From NCBI GenBank assembly GCA_938082375.1, contig CALKCJ010000025.1, forward strand, positions 1-37,362: DNA of 37,362 nt, read 5' to 3'. This document shows, one piece after another, positions 22,871 to 34,845 of this stretch. A program made the translations under genes and the position numbers. Every line of letters starts with the position of its first letter. Position 1 is the first letter of the stretch. The notes below the pieces were generated by a model, which did not search any database, was not told the DNA's origin, and worked only from the letters and a program-made list of their open reading frames with translations. Source of the stretch: an uncultured Thermomicrobiaceae bacterium (GTDB lineage: Bacteria > Chloroflexota > Chloroflexia > Thermomicrobiales > Thermomicrobiaceae).

Positions 22871-23035
22871 GCCCGTCTCGCGCAGACAGAGGCCCGGATC
22901 CTGGTACCCGCCGTTCTTCACGATCATGAAGCAGATGGCCCTCTGGGGTATTCACGAAAGGCAAACGTGAACGCCCATACGCTGATCAGCTGCAGGAGCG
23001 CGCACCGGGAGCGAGGTCGCCGCTGCCAGGCGAGG
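22871..23035. other. Convergent intergenic region between hisD and ruvA
   Basis: The two genes end facing each other. A TTCACG/CGTGAA hairpin (about 22951-22971) and a longer imperfect pairing of CAGAGGCC (about 22887-22894) with GGCCCTCTG (about 22938-22946) are candidate transcript-end structures. Neither has a T-run, so no canonical terminator is called. Confidence 0.35.
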
Positions 23036-23620
23036 CTATCCGGTGCGGGCCAGCAGGCGCAGCGCGGCCAGCACCCGCTCCTCAAGCGTCGGAGCCTCAG
23101 CCAGGTTCACCCGTGCTGCGGCCTCGCGGGCCTCGGCCGCGGTGTAGCCGAGGGCCATCAGCGCCTCGATCACCTCGCGATCCGGGGTGACCCCGGCCCG
23201 CTCGCCGACCGGCGCCAGCGCCGGCAGCTTGCCACGCAGCTCCAGCACGATACGGCTAGCGGTTTTCCGCCCGATGCCTGGCGCCCGGCTGAGCCGCTCC
23301 ACGTCTTCGGCCGCGATCATCTGCCCCAGCTCGTCCGGCCGCGCGATCGAGAGCAGCGCGAGCGCGGCTCTCGGCCCCACGCCGCTCACCCCGATCAGCA
23401 GTTCGAAGAGCTCGAGCTCGGCGGCCGAAGCGAAGCCGTAGAGCGCTAGCTCGTCCTCCCGTACCCGCAGGTGCGTGACGAGCTCGACCTCTTCCCCCGG
23501 CTGGCCGAGGTCAGCCAGCGTGGTCTGCGAGGTGTAGACACGCAGGGTCAAGCCGTGCAGGTCGACGAGCACCGCGCCCGGCTGCTTGGCGACCAGCCGG
23601 CCCCGTATCCCCCGGATCAC
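23036..23620 (-). CDS. ruvA: Holliday junction branch migration protein RuvA
   Basis: The 194-residue RuvA protein binds four-way DNA junctions and loads the RuvB helicase during recombination and repair. The OB-fold N-terminus begins IRGIRGRLVAK. The helix-hairpin-helix region reads GVSGVGPRAALALL and APGIGRKTASRIVLELRGKL. The C-terminal RuvB-binding three-helix domain is ALMALGYTAAEAREAAARV onward. The GTG at 23620 is preceded by GGAGGCAGC and overlaps the upstream amidohydrolase stop (GTGA). No ruvB or ruvC is in view; ruvA here is the last gene of an operon headed by a phosphatase. Confidence 0.95.
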   Translation of the reverse strand: MIRGIRGRLVAKQPGAVLVDLHGLTLRVYTSQTTLADLGQPGEEVELVTHLRVREDELALYGFASAAELELFELLIGVSGVGPRAALALLSIARPDELGQMIAAEDVERLSRAPGIGRKTASRIVLELRGKLPALAPVGERAGVTPDREVIEALMALGYTAAEAREAAARVNLAEAPTLEERVLAALRLLARTG

Positions 23621-24486
23621 GATGCTGCCTCCCTCCGAACCGGCAAGTCGAACACGCGCGCGGCATTCTCGCCGAGCACGAAGGCCAGCTCCTGTTCGGT
23701 CAACCCCACTCGCCGCACCCGCTCGAGAAACGGCTTCTGCCGGAGTACCGGGTAGTCGGTCGCCATCAGCACCCGGTGTGCCCCGGCGATATCGATCACG
23801 GCCCTGAAGACCTGGAACCGGTAGAGGTAGGTGCTGGCGGCCGAGTCGTAGACCACGTTTTGGGCTGTCCTGGCGACCTCCGGCATCAGCTCGTAGAAAG
23901 GCAGACCGCCGCCCCAATGGGCCGCCACCACCACCTGATCGGGGAACGCTTCCAGGAAGCGGATGAAGCGCTGGGGCCAAGCAGAGCCTTTGCCTGGATA
24001 CAGGTGACCCAGCGGCTCACTCACATGGACGAGCAGCGGCTTCGCGTACGCCTGGCAGGCCTCTACCAGCGGCGCCAGCACTTGGGGCTCGGCGAAGTCG
24101 AACCCCTGAGCGTCGGCGTTCAGCTCCCCGATACCGGACGCCCCTTTTTGGAAGCAGCGCTCCGCCTCGGCCGGCGCGCCCGGGTCGCCGGGCACGACGA
24201 TAGCGAGCCAGGCGATGCGCTCCGGATATTCCCGACAGGCGGCAGCCAGGTAGTCGTTGTGCTCCCGACACAGTCCGGGGTCGCTCCAGGGAAAGCCACA
24301 GGCGACCGATACATCGATCGCGGCACTCTCCATCGACGTGAGGAGATCCTCGGCGGTAGCTAGGAGCGCGCGCGGGCTGGCATAGAGCTCGCCGAACCAG
24401 CGGTCGCGCTGGCAGAACTCCTCGCGCTGGTGAACGACCTCCGGCGGGAAGATGTGGGTATGGGCGTCCACGATCACCGGGATCAC
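23617..24486 (-). CDS. Amidohydrolase-family (TIM-barrel metal) hydrolase
   Basis: The 289-residue protein belongs to the amidohydrolase-2 superfamily, whose members include decarboxylases such as ACMSD and lactonase-type hydrolases. Metal-site motifs are DAHTHIFP (HxH near the N-terminus), the Glu in GIGELN, LLVHVSEP, VVAAHWGGG and the Asp in MATDYPVL, spaced as in the family. It ends with the GENAARVF motif. The GTG start at 24486 overlaps the PP2C stop, and its own stop overlaps ruvA, so all three are co-translated. The substrate cannot be inferred; the company of a phosphatase and ruvA gives no pathway. Confidence 0.83.
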   Translation of the reverse strand: MIPVIVDAHTHIFPPEVVHQREEFCQRDRWFGELYASPRALLATAEDLLTSMESAAIDVSVACGFPWSDPGLCREHNDYLAAACREYPERIAWLAIVVPGDPGAPAEAERCFQKGASGIGELNADAQGFDFAEPQVLAPLVEACQAYAKPLLVHVSEPLGHLYPGKGSAWPQRFIRFLEAFPDQVVVAAHWGGGLPFYELMPEVARTAQNVVYDSAASTYLYRFQVFRAVIDIAGAHRVLMATDYPVLRQKPFLERVRRVGLTEQELAFVLGENAARVFDLPVRREAAS

Positions 24487-25385
24487 CCGCCGTAGCCAAG
24501 TGCCAGAATCACTGCCACGATAGCGATGAAGACCAGCAGGCCGAGCAGCACCAGCGCCACCATCAGCCGGTTCGGCCCCCCGGCCTCGACCGGTGCCGGT
24601 TCCTCCTCAGCGACCGGCTTCACCCAGGCGACGACGGCGGTGGCGTTGTCGTTCGTCTGGTGCGCGATCGCCAGCTCGACCAGCCGGCGAGCCGCCTCCT
24701 CCGGCGAGTGTGCCAGTACAGTCGTGGCGATCTCGGCCGCGCTCACGAAGTCGTGGACGCCGTCAGTCGTCAACACCAGACGGTCGTCACTCAGGAGCCG
24801 GAGCTCGAAGATATCCACGTCGACCCGATGCCGGTGCCCCAGTGCCCGGGTGATCACATTGCGGTACTGGCTCTCGCGAGCCTCCTCCTCGGACATCACT
24901 CCGGCGGCCACCTGCTCGGCGACTAGCGAGTGGTCGCGCGTGATCTGGGTCGCTCGCTTGGCGCGGATCAGGTAGGCACGGCTATCGCCGACGTTCGCGA
25001 CTGTCAGGTCGTACTCGCGGATGACGGCGGCGACGAGCGTGGTACCCATGAGGTGGTCTTCGCCCAGCGGCTGCCACTCGCTGTAGATACGCTCGTTGGC
25101 CTGGCGGATGGCCGTGCGCAGGCGCTGGGGGATCTCGGTCGGCTCCAGCGGGCTACTGTAGAAGACATCGCGCAGCGTCTCGATCGCGAGCTGCGCTGCC
25201 ACCTCGCCGCGCTGGTAGCCTCCCATCCCGTCGGCGACCGCCAGCAGCACGCCGTGGCTGCGCGCCAGCTCGCTCTGCGGATCGGTCAGGAGGACTGCAT
25301 CCTCGTTCTGCTCGCGGACAGGCCCCGGGTCGGTGGCAGCTCCGACCACCAGCACTGTCTCGCGCACGCGCTGTCGAACCGACAA
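24483..25385 (-). CDS. PP2C-family serine/threonine phosphatase with C-terminal membrane anchor
   Basis: The product of 300 residues is a metal-dependent protein phosphatase of the PPM/PP2C class. Metal-ligand motifs are DPGPVREQNEDAVLL, VADGMGGYQRGE, MGTTLVAAV, VANVGDSRAYLI, TTDGVHDFV and TNDNATAVVAW. Unlike soluble PrpC, it ends in a single hydrophobic helix (LMVALVLLGLLVFIAIVAVI) after a Pro/Glu linker, so the catalytic domain faces the cytoplasm from the membrane, similar in layout to PstP. The TTG at 25385 is chosen because GGAGGAGCGAGGGA precedes it; the frame upstream to 25541 covers the promoter region. It probably reverses Ser/Thr kinase signalling that the FHA proteins at 33.6-34.8 kb read. 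Confidence 0.92.
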   Translation of the reverse strand: MSVRQRVRETVLVVGAATDPGPVREQNEDAVLLTDPQSELARSHGVLLAVADGMGGYQRGEVAAQLAIETLRDVFYSSPLEPTEIPQRLRTAIRQANERIYSEWQPLGEDHLMGTTLVAAVIREYDLTVANVGDSRAYLIRAKRATQITRDHSLVAEQVAAGVMSEEEARESQYRNVITRALGHRHRVDVDIFELRLLSDDRLVLTTDGVHDFVSAAEIATTVLAHSPEEAARRLVELAIAHQTNDNATAVVAWVKPVAEEEPAPVEAGGPNRLMVALVLLGLLVFIAIVAVILALGYGG

Positions 25386-25433
25386 TCCCTCGCTCCTCCG
25401 GCCCCCACACGACCCCTCGCGACTCGTATGAGT

Positions 25434-25462
25434 AGTATGGAGCGTGAGGCGCAGAGCGACAA
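25434..25462 (-). promoter_or_regulatory. Probable promoter of the PP2C operon
   Basis: On the minus strand, TTGTCG (25462-25457) and CATACT (25439-25434) are spaced by 17 bp, about 50 bases ahead of the PP2C start. Confidence 0.4.
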
Positions 25463-25508
25463 CCGAGCCCCTGGGCGCCAGCCGATACTCGCCGCTAGCG
25501 AGCGGCCG

Positions 25509-25525
25509 TATAATGCCGGTACAAT
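25509..25525 (+). promoter_or_regulatory. Probable -10 elements of the lipoprotein-MFS operon
   Basis: A perfect TATAAT (25509-25514) and a second TACAAT (25520-25525) lie just before the lipoprotein gene. No good -35 is seen. Confidence 0.4.
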
Positions 25526-25553
25526 CGGCCGGCCGATGCAAGGATCACGCTCG

Positions 25554-26294
25554 ATGCCCGCTCACACGCAAGCCGCTCCCAGACCTCGCCGTGGTGTCCG
25601 AGTGCCGAGCTCGTCGTCCGTGTTTCTGCTCGCGCTGCTCGTGCTTCTGGTACCAGGTTGCCGAGGAGACGAGGTCGAACCTCCTGTCGACCCGTCTGAC
25701 CTCGTGAGCACCGCGGCCGACCGGCTCGACCAGGTCAAGACGTTCCACTTCGTGCTGACCCACGAGAGCGGGGGAACACCGCTCTTACAGACCATGCTCC
25801 TGACTCGGGCCGAGGGGGACATGGCTCGGCCGGGCCAGATGAAGGCGCAGCTCGCCGTGGAGGCGGTCGGAGCCGCGCTGCAGCTCCAGTTCATCGGTAT
25901 TGGCGACGAGGCCTGGCTCAGCAACCCGTTCGATCCGACGCAGTGGCAGGCCCTGCCCGATGTCGCGGCGCATGACGTCCTCAACCTGGAGGCGCTCCCC
26001 CACGTGCTGCGCCAGCTCAAGAACCCGAGCCTGGTCGGCGAGGAGCGTCTCGCCGGAGTGGCAAGTTATCACGTCCAGGGCAAGCTGGACTCGGCCGAGC
26101 TGGCGACGCTCGTACCGAGCGGTGCCGAGCCCGGGCTGGAAGTCACAGTTGACCTCTGGATCGGCAAGGACGACTCGCTCGTACGTCGGGTCGTTGTCAG
26201 CGGCGCGCTCACCTTCAAGGAACCGACGACTATGAAGCGCACAATCGAACTCTCCGACTTCGACGCTCCGGTGACGATCATGCCGCCTCAGTGA
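25554..26294 (+). CDS. LppX/LprG-family lipoprotein
   Basis: The 246-residue secreted lipoprotein has an Arg-rich N-terminus, a hydrophobic stretch (FLLALLVLLVPGC) and lipobox Cys36. The mature part follows the LppX_LprAFG pattern: about 190 residues of alternating strands with ADRLDQVKTFHFVLTHESGG at the start, EAWLSNPFDPTQWQALPD in the middle and LEVTVDLWIGKDDSLVRRVVVSGAL near the end. In mycobacteria this fold binds lipids such as triacylglycerides in a hydrophobic cavity. The ATG at 25554 has AAGGA about 9 bases upstream; an ATG at 25536 is an alternative. The stop overlaps the MFS gene (GTGA), the same pairing as mycobacterial LprG and P55. Confidence 0.8.
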   Translation: MPAHTQAAPRPRRGVRVPSSSSVFLLALLVLLVPGCRGDEVEPPVDPSDLVSTAADRLDQVKTFHFVLTHESGGTPLLQTMLLTRAEGDMARPGQMKAQLAVEAVGAALQLQFIGIGDEAWLSNPFDPTQWQALPDVAAHDVLNLEALPHVLRQLKNPSLVGEERLAGVASYHVQGKLDSAELATLVPSGAEPGLEVTVDLWIGKDDSLVRRVVVSGALTFKEPTTMKRTIELSDFDAPVTIMPPQ

Positions 26295-31171: not shown

Positions 31172-31191
31172 CGCAGGCCGGGCAACGCCGC

Positions 31192-31581
31192 TCACGGGAG
31201 AGCTCGCCGGGAACGATCGGGCGGCTCGGGCTGCGGCAGGTGCCGGTAGATCACCACCCCGGCGTTCTCGAAGACCCGCTCGAAGCGCGGGTCGTGCGCT
31301 AGCGCGTTGCGCAGCGCGACGCAGCAGTCGCCCCCGCGGCTCACCGGCGGGCGCTTGACTACATAGAGATAGGTGAACTCGACGTCGTACCGCTGAGCCC
31401 AGGCCTCGATGCAGTCCCCGTCCCAGTCGGCGCACGCCTGCACCTCCTGGTAGCGCGCGATCTCTTCCGAGAAGCCCGGCAGCCACTCGTGCCCCTGCAC
31501 GGTCGCGACGCTCACGCGCCGGGCCAGAACCGGGAACCACTCGGACGACCGGTCGTCGGGCCAGTTGTCCCTGCTGATCAC
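31192..31581 (-). CDS. Probable 3' remnant of a large membrane glycosyltransferase
   Basis: A 129-codon frame with no signal peptide or membrane helix. Its pattern (DNWPDDRSSEWFPVLARRVS, then VATVQGHEWLPGF, ending FENAGVVIYRHL) resembles the soluble C-terminal domain of large membrane-bound glycosyltransferases, as I remember that family. Family-like sequence (WSRFLVIS) continues upstream of the GTG start with no start codon, supporting loss of a longer 5' part. A different gene now begins immediately upstream on the other strand. It may be a decayed fragment that is not translated, or a small free-standing protein. Confidence 0.45.
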   Translation of the reverse strand: MISRDNWPDDRSSEWFPVLARRVSVATVQGHEWLPGFSEEIARYQEVQACADWDGDCIEAWAQRYDVEFTYLYVVKRPPVSRGGDCCVALRNALAHDPRFERVFENAGVVIYRHLPQPEPPDRSRRALP

Positions 31582-31619
31582 GAGAAAGCGACTCCACGGA
31601 TGCCGCGACTGGGCTAATC

Positions 31620-32105
31620 GTGCGGACGGAGAGCAGCCAGGGGCAGCAGCCGGAAGTCGTCGAGATCACCTACCACACGATCGAATACCTCGCTCCGGAG
31701 CAGGTGCCGCCAGACCTCGCTGCCGTCCCCATCCCGGCCGGAGCGAGCACGGAGGAGTACTGGGATCGCGCGTTGAGCGCCCCTCTCCCTACCCTTCCAT
31801 ACGACGTGTACGTCGCCGACTTCGGGTCCTCACCGGTAGCCACGTTCCGCCGGGTCTCGAACTCCTCGGGGTTGACGAGCGACCGCGCCTACGTGATCTA
31901 CCGTACAGCGTCCGGTGAGGTCCAAGTCATCTCCGGGAGCGGGCCGAGCCAACCTGGCCAGATGCCCGGCGATCCGGCTCCCGGCACGGTCGAGATCGCC
32001 GGCACCCGCTGGCACGTCGAGACAGGACTAGGCGGCGTGCAGGGGTCGGCGCAGCTCGGGCGAACTGTAGTCACGATTGCCGCGCCCGACCTGGAGCTCT
32101 TCTAG
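31620..32105 (+). CDS. Hypothetical protein, possibly truncated
   Basis: The 161-residue predicted product has no recognised family, signal peptide or membrane helix. The body is beta-rich (YDVYVADFGSSPVATFRR, RAYVIYRTASGEVQVISGSG) and ends with repeated short strands (TVEIAGTRWHVET, TVVTIAAPDLELF), the look of a C-terminal domain of a secreted or anti-sigma-like protein. No clear ribosome site precedes the GTG. It lies in a patch of apparently decayed genes, so it may be a fragment. Confidence 0.45.
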   Translation: MRTESSQGQQPEVVEITYHTIEYLAPEQVPPDLAAVPIPAGASTEEYWDRALSAPLPTLPYDVYVADFGSSPVATFRRVSNSSGLTSDRAYVIYRTASGEVQVISGSGPSQPGQMPGDPAPGTVEIAGTRWHVETGLGGVQGSAQLGRTVVTIAAPDLELF

Positions 32106-32218
32106 CGGGCCGCGTCGACGCTGCGCCTGTGGCGCCCATGAGCTGCGACTGTGCCGGGCTCGCCTCCCCAACGCCGGTGGAAGGCGTATCGCGCCGTGAG
32201 AGACACGGGTACGACGCC

Positions 32219-33340
32219 TTGAAGATCCGAACGTTCCTGGCGCTTGCTTAGTCACTCGTCCTGCTCGCGCCCGCCTTCGCTCAACGCCAGGCTCCTGCGG
32301 CGGTGCCCTGGCCGAGCTCGACGGGCCCGCGCTCGGTCAGCGGCGAGGTGCTGGACGCCGCGCTGGTCTCGGAGACGTTCGGCTGGGTAGTGACCCAGGA
32401 CGAGCTACTGGCCACGTCCGACGCCGGGGAAACCTGGCACGCAGTGCCGCTGCCGGGGCCGTCCACGCCTCAGCGTGCAGCAGCGGCGCTCGACCCGCAG
32501 CGCCGCTGGGTCACCACGATCCTGGGGGCCACGGTGCGCATCGACCACGCTGACGATGAAGGGTCGACCTGGAGCGGCAGCACGCTCTCGCCTCAGGGAC
32601 CGCCAGGAACGGTGACCCTGGCCATCGATGGCGGCCTGGTGGCGGCCCTCGTGCAACAGATGACCAGCTCCCAGTTCTCGATCGCGGAGCTCTTCGTCAC
32701 CGTGGATGGGGTGAACTGGTCTCGCTACGAGGCGCCGGTCGCCAGCTCCCTGGCGGTGATCGCGCCCGGCACCGTGCTCATCGCCGGGGGAGCGGAGACA
32801 AACGAGCTCTGGCGCAGCGAGACGCTCGGAACGGACTGGCAGCGCGTGTCTCTCGGCGACCGGGGGGCGGAGTCGATCACGCTCGGGGCACCCAGGATGT
32901 TTTCCCAGACCGACGGCGTGCCGCCGGTTACGCTGAATACGGAGCCGCGCTCGCAGGTCGCGTTCCTGGTGACCACCGACGGGGGAAAGAGCTGGTGCCG
33001 GGCCGGCCGGGTAACGGTCGACGCCTCGACCGGCCCGGGGGTGAGGGTGCCGGCTGCCGTCACCTCGCCCCGGCGCTGGTTCGCCATCGAACCAGGCGGC
33101 GCCAGCGTCTATCGAGCGGACAACGCCGGGCGAGGGTTCGGCCAGGAGCGGGCGAGCAGCTTGCCTCAGGGCGTCGCCGACCTTCACGCCGCGAGCGACA
33201 GCGTCGCCTGGGCTCGGACCTGGATCGGCTCCTGCCGCCAGGGGAAGACCGACTGCTGGCTGACGACCGGCGTGTTCCGCAGCCGCGACGGTAGACGAAG
33301 TAGGCAGCCAGTCGTCGTGTCCAACCCGAAGCCCCTGTAG
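32219..33340 (+). pseudogene. YCF48/BNR-like beta-propeller protein with an in-frame TAG in the signal peptide
   Basis: The open part from 32303 (345 codons) has BNR/YCF48-type propeller blades: LLATSDAGETWHAVPL, LFVTVDGVNWSRYEAP, LWRSETLGTDWQRVSLG and FLVTTDGGKSWCRAGRV, as in HCF136-like or sialidase-type exported proteins. Reading the same frame upstream from a TTG at 32219 gives KIRTFLALA, then a TAG stop (32249-32251), then SLVLLAPAFAQ. Together these form a normal signal peptide with a cleavage site, broken by one stop. The last 20 residues lose the blade pattern. It is therefore a probable pseudogene; a sequencing error or a downstream start making a cytosolic protein are the alternatives. 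Confidence 0.6.
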
Positions 33341-33494
33341 CTGCTTGCCAGGGGGAACGTTGCCCCGCATGCCCACACTGCCAGTTGCTCGAGCGCAAAC
33401 CTGCAGCCCGACTGCCTGCTTACCCCCATACCAACAACCTCGAGCGTCTGCTTCTGCAGAGCGGTAGGAACAACTGAGTTGTAACGCTGGTAGT

Positions 33495-33526
33495 TGGTAG
33501 GGGCGAATGATCATTCGCCCCTACCA
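33495..33526. repeat. Perfect 32-bp palindrome of the GTAGGGGCGAAT type
   Basis: The two arms (33495-33510 TGGTAGGGGCGAATGA and its exact complement 33511-33526) meet with no loop. The GTAGGGGCGAA...TTCGCCCCTAC core is, from memory, a widespread intergenic palindrome type in Chloroflexota and cyanobacteria, so it is likely a dispersed repeat. It has no T-run. It occurs once in this window. Confidence 0.8.
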
Positions 33527-34402: not shown

Positions 34403-34845
34403 TCACCGCACTCCCGTTCGAGTGGTTCATCTTGCTCCTGCGGCTTGTGTTCGTCTTCCTCCTCTACTTCTTCCTGCTGCTGGTGATCCGAGTCACGCTG
34501 CGGGAGCTGGCTGCGGTCGCGGCGGCTCAGCGGGGTGACAGCTCGCTGGCCGGCCATCTCATCGTGCAGTCGCCTGGGACGAGTTCACTGCGGCCCGGCA
34601 CACGCCTGTCGCTCGAGCCAGTCAGTGTGATCGGGCGCCACCCGCAGTGCACAATCCGGCTGGACGACAGCTTCGTCTCGACGGAGCATGCGCAGTTGAC
34701 CTGGGACAAGGGGCGCTGGTGGATCAGCGATCTGGGGAGCACCAACGGTACGCGCGTCAACGGGCAGCCGGTGACGGCTCCCACCGGCCTGCGCTATGGT
34801 GATGTCATTGAGCTGGGGGACGTTCGGCTCGTCCTCGCGCCCTAG
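34399..34845 (+). CDS. FhaB-like membrane-anchored FHA protein
   Basis: The 148-residue protein begins with a single transmembrane helix (about residues 10-32, rich in Leu/Phe/Val) and has a cytoplasmic FHA domain at 75-148: SVIGRHPQCTIRLDDSFVST, EHAQLTWDKGRWWISDLGST and NGTRVNGQPV. This is the FhaB/FipA layout, the phosphothreonine reader involved in cell division and cell-wall coupling in mycobacteria. It is co-translated with the FhaA-like gene through an ATGA overlap. In actinobacteria the pair usually precedes pstP, rodA, pbpA and pknAB; here a VanW gene follows instead. Confidence 0.9.
   Translation: MITALPFEWFILLLRLVFVFLLYFFLLLVIRVTLRELAAVAAAQRGDSSLAGHLIVQSPGTSSLRPGTRLSLEPVSVIGRHPQCTIRLDDSFVSTEHAQLTWDKGRWWISDLGSTNGTRVNGQPVTAPTGLRYGDVIELGDVRLVLAP

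Follow-up and report, generated by a model that had tools for sequence, protein, structure and literature searches.

A nonsense codon shared by two genomes in the former signal peptide of a probable YCF48/BNR-type pseudogene from Thermomicrobiaceae

The TAG at positions 32249–32251 of the window (the whole analysed stretch of 37,362 nucleotides from an uncultured Thermomicrobiaceae bacterium) is a real, ancestral nonsense codon, a product of the ordinary decay of a gene that encoded an exported protein. We hold it very probable that the locus as a whole is a pseudogene of a YCF48/BNR-type exported protein, shared with a second genome of the genus (G003) and situated in a region of gene loss. 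The features on which the argument rests are as follows.

31192–31596, minus strand: C-terminal remnant of a 597-codon frame that is intact in genome G001, with the 5' part missing (match to G001)
31595–31596, no strand: junction of two remnants, G001-like on the left and G003-like on the right (sequence matches to G001 and G003)
31596–32141, plus strand: 3' remnant (codons about 169–350) of the preceding 350-codon gene (comparison with G003)
32219–32302, plus strand: former signal-peptide coding region with a TTG start and an AFA-Q site (translation, identity with G003, chance control)
32249–32251, plus strand: in-frame TAG, codon 11, common to G003 (comparison with G003)
32252–33340, plus strand: remainder of the very probable pseudogene, a YCF48/BNR-type frame that is open in the window and broken in G003 (Pfam PSII_BNR, neutral substitution pattern)

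Results

Translation of the plus-strand frame 32219–33340 gives a TTG start at 32219, the residues KIRTFLALA, the TAG at 32249–32251, and then SLVLLAPAFA-Q; behind this stop 362 codons remain open in frame up to the TAG at 33338–33340. Thus the in-frame TAG splitting a signal peptide with an AFA-Q cleavage site, as given in the preliminary description, was confirmed, with its coordinates exact. As a chance control, a simple home-made rule for signal peptides (K or R near the start, a hydrophobic 9-mer, and a small-x-small motif) was applied to all stop-to-stop frames with a length of 250 codons or more, across the six reading frames of the window, L019 and L020. Of 100 such frames, only the one at 32219 acquired a signal-peptide-like N-terminus when one upstream stop was bridged, which makes chance an unlikely source of this signal peptide. 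No signal peptide was seen by eye in the other two forward frames upstream, and a signal peptide in another frame was rejected on this inspection.

Assignment of the frame to the propeller proteins is based on the Pfam family PSII_BNR/YCF48 (PF14870), matched with an E-value of 1.9e-7 and 31.1 bits, just above the curated cut-off of 27, which places it in the YCF48/BNR repeat family. This score and the former signal peptide are what the locus has in common with the YCF48/BNR (Asp-box) repeat proteins; it differs from them in falling below the cut-off of the Ycf48 equivalog model (NCBIfam NF010237, 29.3 bits versus 326), so that Ycf48 orthology is not indicated, and in that the gene is, very probably, dead. 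A search of sequences with solved structures yielded weak matches alone (best E-value 0.013), none of them convincing.

The block occurs as a single copy in its own genome, a draft assembly of 61 contigs, and matches were found in 7 of 101 genomes, the own one included. Within the genus, represented by four genomes of which G002 is just 81% complete, it is present in the own genome and in G003 only. In a sample of 400 genomes of the phylum, where G003 is not among the matching ones, 48 genomes including the own one match at E ≤ 0.001; the best of the others is 27% identical, and no close homologue was found there. G003 and JADBJL010000094.1 (Thermomicrobiaceae bacterium MAG, locus L010) have agreeing sequences and were taken as one genome.

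The G003 copy is 94% identical in DNA to the block in the window and carries the identical TAG at codon 11, with 73 of the 75 bases at 32188–32262 around this stop unchanged. It also contains TGA at codon 73 and TAA at codon 146 (both numbered from TTG 32219) and two one-base frameshifts. Hence two marks of a pseudogene are found, a shared or fixed inactivating lesion (the TAG in both copies) and the accumulation of further lesions (in G003). Presence of the same TAG in this further broken copy contradicts the suggestion that the nonsense mutation is fresh. A sequencing or assembly error at 32249–32251 is the least probable of all the explanations considered, with odds that are close to nil: although the genome is a draft, we found no support for an error, and two separate assemblies that differ by about 6% around the site have the same TAG, which for practical purposes rules out a random one.

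The third mark, absence of purifying selection on codons, was observed as well. In a MAFFT alignment of the two copies the differences are spread over the three codon positions as 25/23/24, with no excess at third positions (chi-square against uniform, p = 0.96) and with dN/dS of 0.81; a BLAST-based count, ending earlier, gives 20/20/23 and 0.71. This comparison is pairwise, between two copies, and does not assign changes to branches. Neutral simulation with the observed transition share (2000 replicates) has a median dN/dS of 0.81, equal to the observed value, with a 95% range of 0.50–1.35 and no replicate at or below 0.24. In a set of ten neighbouring frames with some mutual overlap, dN/dS is 0.08–0.59 (0.08–0.30 in nine of the ten), and in two intact flanking genes the codon-position pattern differs significantly (p = 0.0015 and 0.0006). 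With 75 neutral changes no new stop arose in 168 of 2000 simulations, the median being two new stops, and two were observed, both in the G003 copy; thus the 362-codon open frame behind the TAG in the window is not surprising. A candidate antisense gene was also considered and rejected, with a position pattern of 20/18/19 over 32405–33340 and an interruption in G003.

One of the ten neighbouring frames, at 24930–26294, is unlike the others, with dN/dS of 0.59 and dS of 0.088 versus G003. Its LppX/LprAFG-type lipoprotein domain spans residues 254–450 only, and its first part overlaps the minus-strand frame 24483–25541. The listed start of this frame may be too early, and the high ratio perhaps reflects a non-coding first part in the overlap.

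Genes around the block are damaged too. The gene preceding the propeller gene is an intact frame of 350 codons in G003, while in the window it is kept from about codon 169 on, its 5' half being lost at 31596. The remnant contains a TAG at 32103–32105 found in the window only, and its dN/dS is 0.42, a value based on just 21 differences. On the other side of the junction, window positions 31172–31596 are 88% identical in DNA to G001, and the match ends at 31596; the 597-codon frame to which this part belongs looks like a membrane protein by eye and has no Pfam family above the cut-off. Between the shared flanking genes, G003 has nothing matching either the 597-codon frame or the universal-stress-protein gene next to it, and G001 lacks matches to both the 350-codon gene and the propeller, whereas G001 does retain a 93-base stretch that in G003 lies ahead of the 350-codon gene. 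The simplest history suggested by these matches would be that one ancestor had the full set of genes and that the three lineages each lost a different part of it, with one deletion in the window removing the 5' ends of two divergently oriented genes.

Several other differences were seen in the vicinity. At 22931–23010 of the window, an additional stretch of about 2 kb is present in G001 compared with the window and G003. About 170 bases that separate the pseudogene from a downstream palindrome in the window (33317–33490) are without counterpart in G003, which has about 20 bases there instead. The palindrome itself, a perfect one (GTAGGGGCGAATGATCATTCGCCCCTAC, 33497–33524), lies between the pseudogene and an FHA gene and occurs with at most two mismatches at 2, 6, 23 and 10 places in G000, G001, G002 and G003, respectively, and nowhere in the reversed control; it seems to be a small dispersed repeat belonging to this genus.

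Discussion

From these observations we infer the following order of events. A nonsense change to TAG within the signal peptide would have inactivated the gene of an exported YCF48/BNR-repeat protein, either before the split of the window species and G003 or before a dead copy passed between them. The propeller gene was probably co-transcribed with the preceding 350-codon gene. After inactivation both copies would have drifted without constraint, that of G003 presumably gaining its two additional stops and two frameshifts, and that of the window keeping the frame behind the TAG open by chance. A deletion or rearrangement at 31596 would have cost the window the 5' half of the preceding gene together with the likely promoter. 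Translation initiated at TTG 32219 should end after ten codons, and so no exported protein would be expected. Bacterial pseudogenes with early nonsense codons present the same combination of a shared inactivating stop, more stops and frameshifts, a neutral pattern, and loss of neighbouring genes. Nothing notable sets this locus apart from them; one copy here keeps a long open frame, which is within what chance permits.

One aspect that does not follow from a simple vertical history of neutral sequence is the low divergence of the block, about 6%, which is below that of synonymous sites in nine of the ten neighbouring frames: dS is 0.07–0.08 in the pseudogene and the preceding remnant versus 0.135–0.240 in nine of these frames, the tenth being the one at 24930 mentioned above. 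Exchange of an already dead block between lineages would account for the low dS, and uneven rates would do so likewise. Since the stopped block is less diverged than the synonymous sites of most flanking genes, and since the window copy kept its long frame open, one may also think of a dormant cassette exchanged between species, in which the gene of an exported protein is silenced by an amber codon in the signal peptide; we give this idea a small chance. Slightly smaller still is the chance that translation begins at GTG 32303 and yields a 345-residue propeller protein that stays in the cytoplasm, with the signal-like sequence ahead of it being a fossil. The same stop in a relative together with a conserved start at or near 32303 had been named in advance as evidence against an interrupted signal peptide. 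Both the stop and GTG 32303 are indeed present in G003, and in the window the frame continues uninterrupted to 33340, but a functional start there is not supported, as the G003 frame beyond the GTG holds the TGA, the TAA and both frameshifts. Moreover, third positions show no excess of changes, no clear Shine-Dalgarno sequence was seen by eye ahead of the GTG, and some distant homologues (L065, L069, and L070) have, also by eye, lipoprotein or signal-type N-termini.

It is highly improbable, more so than either of these ideas, that low-level readthrough or recoding of the TAG tunes export of the protein. Such a role of in-frame stops in bacterial genes has been proposed in general (PMC7918605), and our locus resembles the conserved prokaryotic in-frame stops with suggested readthrough described in that paper in that an orthologous TAG occurs in two species and its surroundings show few mismatches. 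It differs from them in the extra stops and frameshifts of the G003 copy and in dN/dS equal to the neutral expectation, which leaves no sign of codon-level constraint downstream of the TAG. In one example in the same paper dN/dS of 0.73 was read as purifying selection; given the simulated median here, a ratio near that value may be neutral, and the methods may differ. Decoding of the TAG finds no support in the genome either. None of its 45 tRNA matches, all with anticodons assigned by ARAGORN, has a CUA anticodon, in a draft tRNA set that may be incomplete, as tRNA-Ile(GAU) and tRNA-Ala(UGC) are not among the 45. The sole match to the PylS model in the genome is the histidyl-tRNA synthetase of the window, far below the cut-off (28.2 bits versus 178.15). 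Finally, TAG ends two neighbouring frames in both species, one whose end is at 34845 and another at 23036–23980 on the minus strand, and truncation of the preceding gene also speaks against readthrough. Of the preliminary interpretation, what stands is that a former signal peptide contains a nonsense codon; the notions of a fresh mutation, a sequence error and a recoded stop have been abandoned.

We found no literature on pseudogenes of Thermomicrobiaceae. For annotation, it would very likely be a mistake to treat the 345-codon frame as a functional gene. For the interpretation of substitution rates, a GC-rich gene where transitions dominate can show dN/dS of about 0.8 under complete neutrality. 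Overall, the locus calls for caution, as a stop inside a clean signal peptide resembled recoding, and one sister genome sufficed to reveal ordinary decay.
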